The translations under genes and the position numbers were made by a program. A DNA stretch of 34,032 nucleotides from a bacterium (GTDB lineage: Bacteria; Patescibacteriota; Minisyncoccia; Phycocordibacterales; UBA12079). This document shows positions 4,317-23,644 of the stretch, piece after piece. The stretch is from contig DAOWHH010000008.1 of NCBI GenBank assembly GCA_030641525.1, positions 1-34,032 on the forward strand, given 5' to 3'. The notes under the pieces were generated by a model that worked only from the letters and a program-made list of their open reading frames with translations, did not search any database and was not told where the DNA came from. Positions within the stretch are counted from its first letter, which is position 1. Each line of letters starts with the position of its first letter.

Positions 4317-4324
4317 AGAATTAT

Positions 4325-4409
4325 ATGAAGCAAGCATATAATTCCATCGCTCGGACATAGTAAAAATAAATATTACCATAATCATTTTTACTAGTCCTCA
4401 CTTGAAATT
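4325..4409 (+). promoter_or_regulatory. 85-nt leader element, copy L1 (-10 box plus hairpin, ends at ATG)
   Basis: It contains TATAAT at 4337-4342, then a hairpin at 4353-4397: GGAC, bulged A, TAGTAAAAAT / ATTTTTACTA, GTCC. TCCTCACTTGAAATT then leads directly into the ATG at 4410. The whole element matches the sequence directly upstream of smpB (copy L2, 23459-23543) at 83 of 85 positions, although the downstream genes are unrelated. It is either a regulated 5' leader or a mobile promoter cassette. Confidence 0.75.
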
Positions 4410-4742
4410 ATGGAAAATTTTGAACAAAATGTTGAAGACAAAGATTTTAATAAATATATTGTAGCAGTTGTTATTTTAATTTTATTAATCGTGGGTGGTT
4501 TTTATTTATGGACTAATTATTTTGGTACTGATACGAAAGAGAAAATTGATTCAGCTAATATTCCTGAGCCAAGTGATGTACCTACTTTAGAAGAAATAGC
4601 AGAAGAACAAGGTAAAGATATTTCGGAGTTTTTACCTGAACCAAGTGATATTCCTACCTTAGAAGAAATAGCAGAAGAACAAGGTAAAGATGTAGCTGAT
4701 TTTATTCCTGCTCCTTCAAATATCCCACCACTAGAATTTTAA
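4410..4742 (+). CDS. Small single-pass membrane protein with acidic PEPSDIPTLEEIAEEQGKD repeats
   Basis: 110 residues, no recognised family. A polar start (1-15) is followed by one TM helix (about 16-36, ending GGFYLW), then an acidic tail. The tail has two nearly identical 24-residue units, PEPSD(V/I)PTLEEIAEEQGKD, followed by -SEFL or -ADFI, and a third partial unit PAPSNIPPLEF that ends the protein. The layout mirrors the 936-1259 protein. The start is supported by the 85-nt leader element, whose last base abuts this ATG exactly as its near-identical copy abuts the smpB ATG. It lies between two secreted repeat proteins, which suggests an envelope role. Function unknown. Confidence 0.75.
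   Translation: MENFEQNVEDKDFNKYIVAVVILILLIVGGFYLWTNYFGTDTKEKIDSANIPEPSDVPTLEEIAEEQGKDISEFLPEPSDIPTLEEIAEEQGKDVADFIPAPSNIPPLEF
4564..4722 (+). repeat. In-gene 72-bp tandem repeat
   Basis: CCTGAGCCAAGTGATGTACC... and CCTGAACCAAGTGATATTCC... share the identical stretch GAAGAAATAGCAGAAGAACA and encode the two 24-residue units. A partial third unit starts CCTGCTCCTTCAAATATC. Confidence 0.8.
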
Positions 4743-10046: not shown

Positions 10047-10076
10047 GATTATTATATTGAAATATTTTTAGTTATA

Positions 10077-10103
10077 TTTACCAGCTATCGGATAGCTGGT
10101 AAA
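10077..10103. repeat. CCAGCTATC palindrome, short form (copy 1 of 3)
   Basis: TTTACCAGCTATC-G-GATAGCTGGTAAA, a 13-bp stem around a single base. It shares its outer arms with the longer palindromes at 10928-10974 and 12735-12775. Confidence 0.8.
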
Positions 10104-10130
10104 TTATCTTTTGTTTTTACACATTATATT

Positions 10131-10159
10131 TTGGAATGAAAAATCTTTTATTGTATAAT
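10131..10159 (+). promoter_or_regulatory. Promoter of the PilB-like gene, overlapping the ORF-track start
   Basis: TTGGAA (10131-10136), a 17-nt spacer and TATAAT (10154-10159). The first ATG of the ORF track (10158) lies inside the -10 box and cannot be transcribed from this promoter. The next in-frame ATG at 10170 is 10 nt past the box, giving an essentially leaderless mRNA. Confidence 0.65.
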
Positions 10160-10169
10160 GGTAATTGAA

Positions 10170-11975
10170 ATGCTTTTAGATAATAAAAAAGTAGAAGATT
10201 TGCTTTTAGAATTAGGCTTGATTAAGCAAGAAGATTTTGATTTGGCACGACAAGAAATAAGAGAGAATAATAATCTCTGTGATATTTTAATAAGAAAAGG
10301 AAAACTAAATAAAGATGAATTAAGAGATATTCAAATGAAAATAACAGGTATAGATTTTGTTGATTTGAAGAATCAAAAGATTGATGAAAAGATTTTATCT
10401 ATTATTCCAGAACCAATTGCTCGGAAATACAATATAATTGCCTTTGATAGAGATGCTAAAACATTAAAAATAGCTGTTTTAGATATATCTGTTTTAGATG
10501 AAATAGATTTTTTAAAGAAAAATATATCTTTAAGAATAATTCCTTATTTAACCAATGAAGCTTCTATTAATAATAATCTTTTGCGTTATCAAGAATTATT
10601 AAAAAAAGATTATGGATCTGTAATTCAGAAAGAATTTTTATCTTTTCAGACTATTTCAGAAGATTCTATAAAGGATTTCTCAAACGAGAAATTATTAGAA
10701 TTAGCTAGAGATAAGAGAATAAATTTTGTTTTTGATTTATTTATACAATACGCTCTTTCTCAAAATGCTTCTAATATTCATATTGAACCACAAAGAGATA
10801 ATGTTTTGATTAGATATAGGATTGGAGGAGTTTTATATCCAGCTATGTTTTTACCAAAAAACGCTATGTTTATTTTAGCTTTAAAGATAAAAGCATTAGC
10901 AGGTTTATCCGTACAAATGGGTATGAATAAAACCAGCTATCCGATAGCCAGTGACTATCGGATAGCTGGTTTTAATAAAAACCATTGTTTTCAAATGGGT
11001 TTTGATGGTAGAAATGTTGATTTCCAAGTACATATAATTCATACTTTATGGGGAGAAAAAATAGTTTTAAATCTTTTGAGAGATGGGGACTCAGGTTTTT
11101 CTTTAGATTCTTTAGGCTTTCACGGAAAGGCTTTAGATGTTTTATATACAGAGTTAAATAAAAGAAACAAAATGATCTTGATTGCTGGTGATGAAGGTTC
11201 CGGTAAAACTACTTCTTTTTATACTTTTTTGGATTTATTAAAATATTCTAATTTAAATATTACAACCATAGAAAATTCAATTGGTTTTCAGATGTCAGGT
11301 ATAAATCAAATGGTGACTAATTCTGATATATCATTTAATATAGCTAATGGAGTTAAAAAATTAGAAAAACAGGATGTAGATATTATTGGTGTTGATGAAA
11401 TAGAAGATTTTAAAACAATCAAGTCGTTATTTAATGGTACTTATGAAGATAAATTCACTTTAGCTGTTTTAGAAACTAAAGAAAATTCAGGAGCTAAAAT
11501 AATTTCGAAATTATTGAGTGTGGAATTAAGTCCAGCAGCCATAACATCTGGTTTAGGAGTTATTCTTTTGCAAAAAATGTTTCCTAAATTAGATAAAGAA
11601 AATAGTAATGAGTATTATTTGAACGTTTCCGAAATCACAAAATTATCTAAATCTAAAAAAATTGATTTAGAAAAAATAATGGATGCTTTGGTTCAAGAAA
11701 ATATTTTAGAGAAAAAGATTCCTTGGTCACAAGTAAAATTTTATAAATCAGATAAAAATAAAAAAGATTCTTCAGAAAATAATAAAAAAATTATGATAAG
11801 CGAGGTTCTTAAAATAAGTCCAATAGTCAAAGAAATGATTTTAAATAATAAAAATTCTGAGGATATTGAAAAACAGGCATTGAAAGAAGGGATGTTTTCT
11901 TTAGAAGAAGAACTTATTTTTAAAGCTGTGCAAGGTCTCATTAATATAGACTTAATACTTATATATGAAATTTAA
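10170..11975 (+). CDS. Divergent PilB/GspE-family type II secretion/type IV pilus ATPase-like protein
   Basis: About 601 residues from ATG 10170 (the ORF track uses 10158, which lies inside the -10 box). An N-terminal MshEN-like domain (VEDLLLELGLIKQEDFDLARQ...) is followed by the secretion ATPase core. That core has NIHIEPQRDNVLIRYRIGGVL, Walker A GDEGSGKTT and an Asp-box-like TIENSIGFQMSGINQMVTN. Key motifs are degraded: the Walker B region reads VDIIGVDEIED instead of D-D-I-VGEIRD, the EKRLPQDGR segment is missing, and there is no tetracysteine zinc motif. Where EKRLPQDGR should be, a 47-bp palindromic repeat is inserted in frame, encoding KTSYPIASDYRIAGF. It overlaps tpiA by 11 nt. No pilus genes are adjacent. 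It may be a regulatory or decaying paralogue; ATPase activity is doubtful. Confidence 0.8.
   Translation: MLLDNKKVEDLLLELGLIKQEDFDLARQEIRENNNLCDILIRKGKLNKDELRDIQMKITGIDFVDLKNQKIDEKILSIIPEPIARKYNIIAFDRDAKTLKIAVLDISVLDEIDFLKKNISLRIIPYLTNEASINNNLLRYQELLKKDYGSVIQKEFLSFQTISEDSIKDFSNEKLLELARDKRINFVFDLFIQYALSQNASNIHIEPQRDNVLIRYRIGGVLYPAMFLPKNAMFILALKIKALAGLSVQMGMNKTSYPIASDYRIAGFNKNHCFQMGFDGRNVDFQVHIIHTLWGEKIVLNLLRDGDSGFSLDSLGFHGKALDVLYTELNKRNKMILIAGDEGSGKTTSFYTFLDLLKYSNLNITTIENSIGFQMSGINQMVTNSDISFNIANGVKKLEKQDVDIIGVDEIEDFKTIKSLFNGTYEDKFTLAVLETKENSGAKIISKLLSVELSPAAITSGLGVILLQKMFPKLDKENSNEYYLNVSEITKLSKSKKIDLEKIMDALVQENILEKKIPWSQVKFYKSDKNKKDSSENNKKIMISEVLKISPIVKEMILNNKNSEDIEKQALKEGMFSLEEELIFKAVQGLINIDLILIYEI
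10928..10974. repeat. CCAGCTATCCGATAG palindrome inserted in frame in a CDS (copy 2 of 3)
   Basis: Perfect 20-bp arms TAAAACCAGCTATCCGATAG / CTATCGGATAGCTGGTTTTA around the 7-nt loop CCAGTGA. It occurs inside the PilB-like coding sequence without breaking the frame. The same element lies in two nearby spacers. Confidence 0.9.
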
Positions 11976-12732
11976 AAAAATTGTCATTGCTAATTGGAAA
12001 ATGAATCCCAATAGCTTGTCTGAAGCTGAAGAGATTTTTAAAGGTATCAAAAAACGAGTTAATAAATTTAAAAATCTTAAAGTGGTTATTTGTTCTCCTT
12101 TTGTTTATATAAATAACTTAAAACAATTAAATAAAAAGGAAATTATTTCTTTAGGAGCACAAGATTGTTTTAATCAAGAGAAGGGCGCTTGGACTTCTAT
12201 GATTTCAGCTTCAATGATAAAAAGTGTCGGAGCTAGCTTTGTGATTCTTGGTCACTCTGAAAAAAGGTTAATAGGTGAAGATGACAAACAAATAAATCAA
12301 AAGATTAAATTAGCTTTTAAGAATAAACTTAAGGTGGTTTTGTGTATAGGTGAAAAAGAAAGAGACGAAGAAGGGGTTTATTTTTCGTTCTTAGAAAATC
12401 AAATATTATCAGCATTATCGGGGATTAATAGAAAATTTATTAAGAATATTTTGATTGTTTACGAACCAATTTGGGCCGTAGGTAAATCTTCTAGGAGAGT
12501 GATTTCAGATAAAGAATTACAAGAAATTAGTATTTTTATTAAAAGGGTTTTGATGGATAAATTTGGTGAAAAAGATTTTAATTTAATTAAAATTTTATAC
12601 GGTGGATCTGTAAGTCACAAAAATGTTGAAGATTTAATCCAAAATGGAGGAGTTGATGGCTTTTTAGTAGGTAGAGATTCTTTGGATTCTAGGAAATTTA
12701 ATAAGATTTTAGATGTAGTTGATAAAAATTAG
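11965..12732 (+). CDS. tpiA: Triosephosphate isomerase
   Basis: 255 residues, normal length. It interconverts dihydroxyacetone phosphate and glyceraldehyde 3-phosphate in cytosolic glycolysis. Catalytic residues are visible: Asn10 and Lys12 in IANWKMNP, His97 in LGHSEKR and Glu167 in YEPIWAVG, plus the phosphate-binding YGGSV and GFLVGRDSL near the end. The mobile loop after Glu167 reads AVGKSSRR instead of the usual A-GTGK-A, an unusual lid. The start codon lies inside the end of the PilB-like gene (11-nt overlap), so the two are probably translated from one mRNA. pgk follows after a 53-nt spacer filled by a palindromic repeat, so this is a small glycolytic cluster. Confidence 0.96.
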   Translation: MKFKKIVIANWKMNPNSLSEAEEIFKGIKKRVNKFKNLKVVICSPFVYINNLKQLNKKEIISLGAQDCFNQEKGAWTSMISASMIKSVGASFVILGHSEKRLIGEDDKQINQKIKLAFKNKLKVVLCIGEKERDEEGVYFSFLENQILSALSGINRKFIKNILIVYEPIWAVGKSSRRVISDKELQEISIFIKRVLMDKFGEKDFNLIKILYGGSVSHKNVEDLIQNGGVDGFLVGRDSLDSRKFNKILDVVDKN

Positions 12733-12734
12733 TA

Positions 12735-12775
12735 AACCAGCTATCCGATAGCCAGTGGCTATCGGATAGCTGATT
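12735..12775. repeat. CCAGCTATCCGATAG palindrome between tpiA and pgk (copy 3 of 3)
   Basis: AACCAGCTATCCGATAGCC-AGT-GGCTATCGGATAGCTGATT: 19-bp arms with one mismatch. It nearly fills the spacer between tpiA and pgk. It could act as an RNA-processing or attenuation hairpin, or simply be an inserted repeat. Confidence 0.85.
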
Positions 12776-12785
12776 TTTAATAAAA

Positions 12786-22058: not shown

Positions 22059-22144
22059 TTCGATTCCCACCGTCTCTCACAAACGCAAACGACACCAAAG
22101 CATTGCTTTGGTGTCGGCGTTTTGTGGAGACGGTGGGAATCGAA
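22059..22144. repeat. Long inverted repeat made from the ssrA 3' end
   Basis: TTCGATTCCCACCGTCTCTCACAAACGC ... GACACCAAAGC-ATT-GCTTTGGTGTC ... GCGTTTTGTGGAGACGGTGGGAATCGAA. The right arm is the T-arm and acceptor strand of tmRNA. The left arm is an inverted copy with few mismatches. The inner 11-bp perfect stem could terminate ssrA, although no U-tract follows. Confidence 0.8.
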
Positions 22145-22515
22145 CCCACATGTGACAATACTTTTAATATGATTCTACAATATATAGATTATTTTTTTGT
22201 TTTAAATGAAGAAAATAAGAAATAATCAAAAACATTCTTCATCGATTTTCTTAGTTTCGAAAATTTGCTGAAAAGGTTCAAATTTTTATATCCTGAAAAT
22301 ATTATGCCGAGATAGATTTATCAGAAATCAATCCATCCGACACCAGTCGCTTTTTAAGCAAAAGCTAGAGCTGGAGTAGAGAAGTAAGGCGAAGCCATTC
22401 TTCCTACTTTCTTAGATAAGTCTGCACTTAATCTGTTCTATTTTTTAACGAGTATAATAGAAATCTCGATATTGCACATAATAAAGGAATATTACCAGCG
22501 AAGCCGATCATCCCC
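22125..22515 (-). ncRNA. ssrA: Transfer-messenger RNA (tmRNA)
   Basis: About 391 nt on the minus strand. The 5' end GGGGATGATCGGCTTCG has the conserved tmRNA GGCTTCG. The 3' end is GTGGGTTCGATTCCCAC (T arm), CGTCTCC, then discriminator A. GGGGATG pairs with CGTCTCC over 7 positions including G-U pairs. The next bases are CAA, so CCA is not encoded. The tag frame resumes at GCA (22425-22423, preceded by TTAAGT) and reads ADLSKKVGRMASPYFSTPALAFA, ending TAA at 22354. tmRNA with SmpB rescues stalled ribosomes and marks the product for proteolysis. smpB lies upstream on the same strand, separated by a GIY-YIG gene. Confidence 0.93.
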
Positions 22516-22656
22516 CTAAAACATTTCATGAAAGACTATTTTCTGAATTTTAAAATTCAGAAAATAGTCTTTCATGAAATGTTCGGGCGAACATCTTTTA
22601 TTCTATAATTTTTAAGATTTTAATCTTAAAAATTATAGAATAAAAGATGTTTTAGC
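22514..22656. repeat. Two giant palindromes joined head to head, directly 5' of ssrA
   Basis: Unit one, 22521-22582, is a perfect 62-bp palindrome (31-bp arms, no loop), ACATTTCATGAAAGACTATT... . Unit two, 22591-22650, has perfect 29-bp arms ACATCTTTTATTCTATAATT... around TT. They are separated only by TCGGGCGA and flanked by CCTAAA and TTTAGCC, the constant ends of the hairpin family. A degenerate third unit (AAACATTCTAATGCTTTAGGC) may be at about 22692-22712. The first unit touches the tmRNA 5' end. Confidence 0.9.
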
Positions 22657-23005: not shown

Positions 23006-23458
23006 CTATCTATATCTATCTTTCATTTCTCTATCTATATCTCTTTGTATATCTTTCTTTTTTATAGTTTCTCTCTTATCGTATTTTTTCTTTCCTTTCA
23101 CAACGGCTATTTCTAACTTGATTTTATTCCCCTTATTATACATTGAAACTGGGATAATTGTCAATCCCTTTTGAGCTTCTAAATTAGCTAGATGTGAAAT
23201 CTGTTTTTTACTTAATAAAAGGATTCTATTTCGCTTTGAGTCATAATCTAAAGGGGTGTTTTTGGGTTGGTAGGGTGGAATATTGGAATTAAATAATATA
23301 GCTTCATCTCCTCTAATACTGATATGAGAACCTTCAAGAGACCCTTTCTTTCCTTTAATAGATTTCACCTCAAAACCAAGCAATTTTATTCCTGCTTCTA
23401 ATTTCTCTAAAATCTCATATTTTAGTCCTATTTTTTTGTTCTTTATGAATATTGTCAT
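23006..23458 (-). CDS. smpB: SsrA-binding protein SmpB
   Basis: 150 residues, normal length. SmpB binds the tRNA-like domain of tmRNA and lets it enter stalled ribosomes. IKNKKIGLKYEILEKLEAGIKLLGFEVKSIKGKKGSLEGSHI is the typical OB-fold start, and HLANLEAQKGLTIIPVSMY the conserved middle. The basic tail KKKYDKRETIKKKDIQRDIDREMK is the segment that forms a helix in the mRNA channel. Its RNA partner ssrA lies 500 nt downstream on the same strand. The start is fixed by the 85-nt leader element (L2) ending directly at the ATG. Confidence 0.97.
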   Translation of the reverse strand: MTIFIKNKKIGLKYEILEKLEAGIKLLGFEVKSIKGKKGSLEGSHISIRGDEAILFNSNIPPYQPKNTPLDYDSKRNRILLLSKKQISHLANLEAQKGLTIIPVSMYNKGNKIKLEIAVVKGKKKYDKRETIKKKDIQRDIDREMKDRYR

Positions 23459-23543
23459 AATTTCGAGTGAGGATTAGTAAAAATGATTATGGTAATATTT
23501 ATTTTTACTATGTCCGAGCGATGGAATTATATGCTTGCTTCAT
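23459..23543 (-). promoter_or_regulatory. 85-nt leader element, copy L2, ending at the smpB ATG
   Basis: Reverse complement of L1 (4325-4409) with 2 differences in 85. It has TATAAT, then GGACA-TAGTAAAAAT ... ATTTTTACTA-ATCC, then TCACTCGAAATT and the smpB ATG. Confidence 0.8.
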
Positions 23544-23545
23544 CT

Positions 23546-23629
23546 AATTTCGAGTGAGGATTAATAAAAATAATTATGTAATATTTATTTTTATTATGTC
23601 CGAACTATGTAATTATATGCTCGCTTCAT
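23546..23629 (-). promoter_or_regulatory. 84-nt leader element, copy L3, in tandem upstream of L2
   Basis: The third copy, 2 nt from L2. It is more diverged, but the stem is preserved: TAATAAAAAT pairs with ATTTTTATTA where L1 and L2 have TAGTAAAAAT and ATTTTTACTA. Both sides of one pair have changed together. It retains TATAAT. Confidence 0.8.
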
Positions 23630-23644
23630 ATAGTTATTAAAATA

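Follow-up and report, generated by a model that had tools for sequence, protein, structure and literature searches.

A small protein-less mobile DNA element that folds into hairpins and is placed at start codons and tRNA-Ile genes in Campbellbacteria-like Paceibacterota

The leader of about 85 letters that precedes two genes in the window (the whole analyzed stretch of 34,032 nucleotides) is a copy of a small mobile DNA element that encodes no protein and folds into hairpins. The element inserts precisely, carries AT at its ends, is constrained in its folding, is gained or lost lineage by lineage, and is placed at start codons and in tRNA-Ile genes. We consider it probable that this is a non-autonomous element (74-110 bp, no ORF) of Campbellbacteria-like Paceibacterota, with start codons and tRNA-Ile genes as its sites, and that it is moved in trans.

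Copies in the window and their structure

Two copies, L1 (4325-4409, + strand) and L2 (23543-23459, - strand), differ at 2 of 85 positions, and an ATG directly follows each, in agreement with the initial annotation, which had described a shared 85-nt leader, 83/85 identical, ending at the ATG. The AT at 4323-4324 adds two nucleotides of the element to the left of L1 as first delimited. The third copy, L3 (23629-23545, - strand), lies in tandem upstream of L2, one unit (86 nt) off. A 26-nt core gave three matches in the window against zero expected (100 shuffles). The features are as follows.

4323..4412, + strand: copy 1 (L1) with the flanking AT and the ATG, ATATGAAGC...GAAATTATG
4323..4339, + strand: left hairpin H1 of copy 1, ATATG-AAGCAAG-CATAT, whose stem covaries across genomes
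4337..4343, + strand: 5' strand of the outer stem P1 of copy 1, TATAATT, which doubles as a perfect -10 box
4346..4404, + strand: near-constant internal-loop halves around P2 of copy 1, TCGCTC before and TCACTTG after (4398-4404), from alignments
4353..4397, + strand: inner hairpin P2 of copy 1, GGAC(A)TAGTAAAAAT ... ATTTTTACTAGTCC
4406..4412, + strand: 3' strand of P1 of copy 1, AATTATG, the final three bases being the start codon of a 110-aa membrane-protein ORF
4410..4742, + strand: target gene 1, a small membrane protein with acidic repeats
23456..23545, - strand: copy 2 (L2), joined to copy 3 by AG and ending in the smpB ATG
23543..23631, - strand: copy 3 (L3), older and more diverged, the first of two array units
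23006..23458, - strand: target gene 2, smpB

The TATAAT, the GGACA, the arms TAGTAAAAAT/ATTTTTACTA (TAATAAAAAT/ATTTTTATTA in L3), and the TCCTCAC described at the outset were all present. The left flank of copy 3 (...TATGCTAATATTTTAATAACT) is similar to the native smpB promoter region of relatives. L2 is almost the same as L1, whereas L3 is more diverged; this would fit the recent insertion of L2 between the smpB ATG and a copy that was already there. The window encodes, at 936-1259 and 4410-4742, two small membrane proteins that each span the membrane once, carry acidic tandem repeats, and seem to be of one type; the element is found only at the second.

The element is a structured, non-coding unit of about 74-110 bp composed of H1, P1, an internal loop, and P2. 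From left to right, the order is H1, the P1 5' strand (TATAATTNC), NNCGCTC, P2 (GGA...TCC), TCRCTYG, and the P1 3' strand (GNAATTATR). The internal loop is near-constant (TCGCTCGG/CCTCGCTCG), the sequence of P2 is highly variable, and covariation was found in every stem. H1 starts at the extreme left end and occurs in a 'long' form, ATATG-AAGCRAG-CATAT (7-nt loop), and a 'short' form, ATATGC-AAA-GCATAT. Its pairing is kept across ATATGC/GCATAT, ATATGG/CCATAT, ATATC/GATAT, ATATGAG/CTCATAT, ATATAC/GTATAT, ATATGAAATC/GATTTCATAT, and ATATACCCAA/TTGGGTATAT, and that of P1 across AATTCC/GGAATT, AATTGC/GCAATT, AAAAGC/GCTTTT, AATCAC/GTGATT, and ATTTGC/GCAAAT; this comparison of P1 and H1 comprised 42 copies, among which the row of G147 is shifted by one base.

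For P1 and P2 in 20 copies of the own genome, 97.8% of cells pair, six pairs are altered on both sides, and the covariation score exceeded all 500 shuffles and all slid controls. The change from G-C to A-U first noticed in L3 is real and is one of these six pairs. The compensation is strong, but it also fits a mobile element and does not show gene regulation. The folded strand could be the substrate of a mobility enzyme, and for this reason compensatory change is no proof of regulation.

H1 overlaps P1 and competes with it in integrated copies. When the tandem or circle junction (GAAATT-AT-ATGC-AAA-GCATATAATTCC) was folded, H1 and P1 merged into one continuous stem. That H1 and P1 are both constrained is what most suggests that the element works as a circle or in tandem. 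Internal tandem junctions of the own genome mostly read AATT-AG-ATG (e.g. window 23543-23545, L004, L008, and L023); relatives and external ends have AT. There is no ORF within the element, and no ORF-bearing copy was found. A conserved upstream mini-ORF (ATGAAGCAAGCA...), read by eye, was rejected due to early stops in several copies, and a rolling-circle nick site, TATTAC in the P2 loop, was rejected as unconserved and missing from the short forms. Neither attC nor self-cleaving ribozyme motifs were seen in the element.

Distribution, filled sites, and empty sites

The own genome (584 kb) contains 31 matches, which stand singly or repeat head to tail every 85-88 nt or so. Several lie at contig ends, where arrays probably broke the assembly; the genomes used are draft assemblies (MAGs), and an array that reaches the end of a contig is incomplete. 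With a covariance model, the element was detected in 10/10 relatives of the same family (Campbellbacteria/Paceibacterota), with up to 13 copies each, and in five further genomes of the order, with 1-3 copies. Pattern scans of 397 genomes of the order yielded further multi-copy relatives, such as G187, G245, G206, and G178; G187 has five near-identical copies of 107-109 nt. The RE matches in G134/G218/G245 (TCCTCGCTCGTAATTGTG) and in G148 were judged to be chance or larger repeats. In a scan of 84,980 species, the carriers were Candidatus Campbellbacteria / Paceibacterota / Patescibacteria MAGs, and Paracoccus gave one match to a single pattern only. The phage and plasmid records gave no credible match. 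Near-identical response-regulator starts were observed on two contigs (L013 on G000:C4 and L025 on G000:C18), each behind a different variant of the element, and two rplU copies on two contigs (L198 and L207); these doubled loci stem either from duplication or from an assembly that mixes strains.

An AT stands at each end of the insert, against a single AT in the empty site. At smpB, 10/10 relatives are without the element, their ATG coming straight after a short upstream stretch rich in A/T; here, two units stand between a similar promoter region and the ATG. At rplU, the site is empty in G007 (tatatagtaatt directly before the ATG) and filled in G006 (tatatagtgatt[ATATGGAGC...AGAAATT]ATG). 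A copy at rplU is also present in G003 and absent from G001, the RplU proteins of the two being 92% identical, and at tpiA the element is present in G002 only.

The copies in tRNA-Ile anticodon loops were found outside the family, and the forms of other families are often placed so. In G072, one copy of tRNA-Ile(GAU) is split within the anticodon loop, and an intact one lies beside it. The insert in G138 and G052 splits one tRNA-Ile(UAU) gene and itself holds another, complete one within P2, and G274 has a decayed case (loci L172, L160, and L154, respectively); in all three, the nested tRNA-Ile(UAU) gene in P2 is intact and lies in the anticodon loop of another tRNA-Ile gene. In silico excision of the insert restored a predicted tRNA-Ile in L172, L160, and L045. 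Copies at or beside tRNA-Ile remnants occur in G094, G043, and others. In G094, a tRNA-Ile-like fragment (L046, 1200-1300) with a long hairpin (GAGAAACAATGCATAGGCACTGTTTCTC) in place of the anticodon arm adjoins an intact tRNA-Ile(GAU).

The element is mobile because the empty sites at smpB, rplU, and tRNA-Ile show clean, lineage-specific insertions. The initial annotation had offered a mobile promoter cassette as its second option, and the mobility in that option is borne out by the roughly 30 copies, the tandem arrays, and the presence or absence among close relatives at smpB, tpiA, and rplU.

Placement at start codons

Of the 62 array-terminal copies that the family has, 38 have ATG as their last three bases, and in all but one of these (37 of 38) the ATG begins an ORF of 60 codons or more. 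In DNA sampled from the family, start codons make up 21% of the non-coding/start T-ATG sites and 6% of the T-AT-R sites. The corresponding binomial tails are near 1e-24 and 1e-28; these values are indicative, as they rest on a simple null model and gene calls, and the insertions are not all independent. The long-H1 form was found at starts in 32/41 copies and the other forms in 5/21 (Fisher 7e-5). An excess over chance at start codons, which had been proposed as a check, is therefore evident in the family copies. Random placement together with a lack of compensatory change, which would have pointed to a simple mobile repeat, was seen on neither count, as the placement is strongly non-random and the compensation strong.

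The targets in the own genome are unrelated (dnaN, rplF, rpsQ, rpsU, secE, smpB, a response regulator, and secreted proteins), and elsewhere they include murG, rnhA, tpiA, rplU, and rpsS, names assigned from the translated starts. Only 12% of the genes of this lineage have an SD by a lenient test, and AAATT-ATG, the context formed by the right end of the element, is frequent. This match may explain the tolerance of insertions at starts, even of those within an operon of ribosomal-protein genes. Nearly every copy contains TATAAT, and tandem junctions with CTTGAAA show, as read from the sequence, a TTGAAA-16-TATAAT spacing that resembles a sigma-70 promoter. A leader or promoter role of the inserted copies is plausible but unproven, and in an RNA started at a promoter further upstream, the AUG would hypothetically be part of P1.

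The first option of the initial annotation was a cis-regulatory RNA coupling ribosome rescue to an envelope gene. A true leader family of this kind, similar to a riboswitch or thermometer and with smpB and the envelope gene in one regulon, would explain a covarying structure in sense orientation directly 5' of start codons, and the P1 3' strand contains the AUG and could hide it. However, the target genes are unrelated and differ among species, and some orthologues of smpB and rplU have the element while others do not. Additionally, many copies are intergenic or within tRNA genes, tandem arrays are formed, and no credible match was obtained among 4227 Rfam families. We regard this explanation as unlikely, and the proposed coupling of the two genes is not supported.

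Mode of movement and relation to known systems

The element behaves like a MITE, but its targeting is unusual and no parent transposon was found; it can be seen as a variant of the MITE/REP kind. As in MITEs (Correia/NEMIS, ERIC, RUP), the copies are short, non-coding, numerous, dispersed, and hairpin-forming, use a target dinucleotide, leave clean empty sites with a small target duplication, and lie in transcribed regions; short length, lack of coding sequence, hairpins, and a target dinucleotide are MITE-type features in reviews (PMC2229807, PMC10969869). As for terminal inverted repeats, P1 is an inverted repeat of 7-9 bp whose left arm lies about 12-14 bp inside the left end, behind H1. 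In contrast to MITEs, the target is T-AT-R with exact placement at start codons and in tRNA-Ile anticodon loops, the element is asymmetric with an extra left hairpin, and head-to-tail arrays are common. The same small-mobile-sequence reviews, PMC10969869 and PMC2229807, contain no mention of 'start codon', and we found exact placement before start codons or in tRNA-Ile genes described for no other such element.

By patterns of the left and right ends, no convincing autonomous version was found in the 397 genomes of the order, although a diverged parent is possible. The unpaired ends L159 and L226 gave nothing convincing in this respect, the viral contig scans returned 0, 0, and 2 matches, the two being without the rest of the element, and no dedicated transposase or autonomous partner was found.

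A single-strand (HUH-like) or other circle-based mechanism would fit best. An enzyme encoded elsewhere would recognize the folded strand and cut at T/AT on the left and AATT/AT on the right. A circle, for which tandem junctions are all that was observed, would then form, its junction AATT-AT-ATGC joining H1 and P1 in a single stem, and would insert at a new T-AT-R site; repeated insertion would produce the tandem arrays. The start-codon bias may result from a T-ATG target combined with tolerance of, or selection for, such insertions. The right end would recreate the SD-less AAATT-ATG context usual in the lineage, so that insertion would add an 88-nt hairpin leader with the start neither moved nor destroyed, and TATAAT (with TTGAAA across the tandem junction) may serve as a promoter.

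Guide sequences of IS200/IS605 elements base-pair with their cut sites. Like these elements, the present one has subterminal hairpins and, on the proposed mechanism, would have a short target recognized beside one end and a circular junction, and its GCATATAATT strand can possibly pair with both ends as the guide sequences do. It differs in that no Y1 TnpA is tied to it, its hairpins overlap the very ends, and it is far smaller.

A REP/REPIN-type element moved by the RAYT (Y1) transposases of the genome would account for the hairpins and the small size, and RAYT-like PF01797 proteins are encoded in 11/11 family genomes. REPs are also palindromic and occur in the same genomes, and single-strand folding likely matters for both. 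However, REPs are 20-40 bp long, bear GTAG/CGTC tags, and lie mostly downstream of genes (PMC3733652), whereas the element is 74-110 bp long, asymmetric, placed at start codons, and without such a tag at the hairpin foot. The RAYT loci examined (L031, L032, and L208-L225) mostly have their own, distinct symmetric palindromes (e.g. CTCCGGAGGTTGAACCTCCGGAG and TAGTAGACATCGGATGTCTACTA), the Y1 proteins of the own genome are RAYT-like and go with other repeats, and none of these loci flanks the element. This origin is thus quite improbable. A different family of REP-like palindromes (CCAGCTATCCGATAGC...) was observed at 10074-10112, 10916-10986, and 12724-12777 of the window, one of them inside a GspE-like ORF (10158-11975), and a similar palindrome, AACAGCTATCGGATAGCTGTT, comes after the element copy L028. 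Two perfect inverted repeats (22520-22583 and 22590-22651; arms of 32 and 30 nt, loop of 0-2 nt) lie beside the tmRNA gene (22122-22515, - strand).

We give even less credence to sites of a large serine or tyrosine recombinase (attC/att-like) with AT as the crossover. The 2-bp AT at both ends, the tandem junctions, and the tRNA targets recall site-specific integration, and one copy in G005 precedes a small ORF upstream of a serine recombinase. However, this copy is an ordinary start-codon site, the AT lacks symmetric arms, and the GTTRRRY/RYYYAAC motif is absent; serine recombinases were detected in 10/11 and tyrosine recombinases in 9/11 family genomes, and G001 carries at least 12 copies with neither detected. 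Inspection for integron attC found no RYYYAAC...GTTRRRY cores in the element, and the arrays are without cassettes. Anticodon-loop integrative elements also target the anticodon loop of tRNA-Ile, and three copies here likewise bring a replacement tRNA-Ile gene; unlike them, the element has no integrase and no duplicated tRNA end, the P2 loop contains the replacement, and the insertion splits the target.

Least probable of all is a small circular intron-like RNA that enters mRNA starts and tRNA anticodon loops by reverse splicing and is then copied to DNA: the sites of insertion, start codons and anticodon loops, are landmarks at the RNA level, the junction form adopts a single rod-like fold, and the interrupted tRNAs of L172 and L160 would be intact without the insert, but several of the copies in tRNA genes run antisense to the tRNA, splicing is not needed where an intact tRNA-Ile accompanies the interrupted one, either next to it or within it, and no ribozyme core is recognizable.

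A bolder form of the mobile-element reading can be offered only tentatively. The element might represent a new mobile class, a folded single-stranded circle of DNA or RNA whose own sequence steers it to start codons and tRNA-Ile anticodon loops, which spreads ready-made 5' leaders in ultra-small genomes, sometimes carries a replacement tRNA gene, and relies on an enzyme with no link so far to a known transposition system.

The finding is also a warning that covariation in a shared leader need not imply a regulon. It raises tractable questions in a lineage with little-known gene expression, namely which enzyme moves the element, whether the circle is DNA or RNA, and why start codons are chosen. 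Small bacterial mobile repeats are usually intergenic, whereas this element lands on the start codons of essential genes without destroying them, and in the nested tRNA-Ile copies it interrupts a tRNA while bringing a substitute. In this way it can give Patescibacteria, whose genomes are minimal, new 5' leaders and perhaps new promoters.
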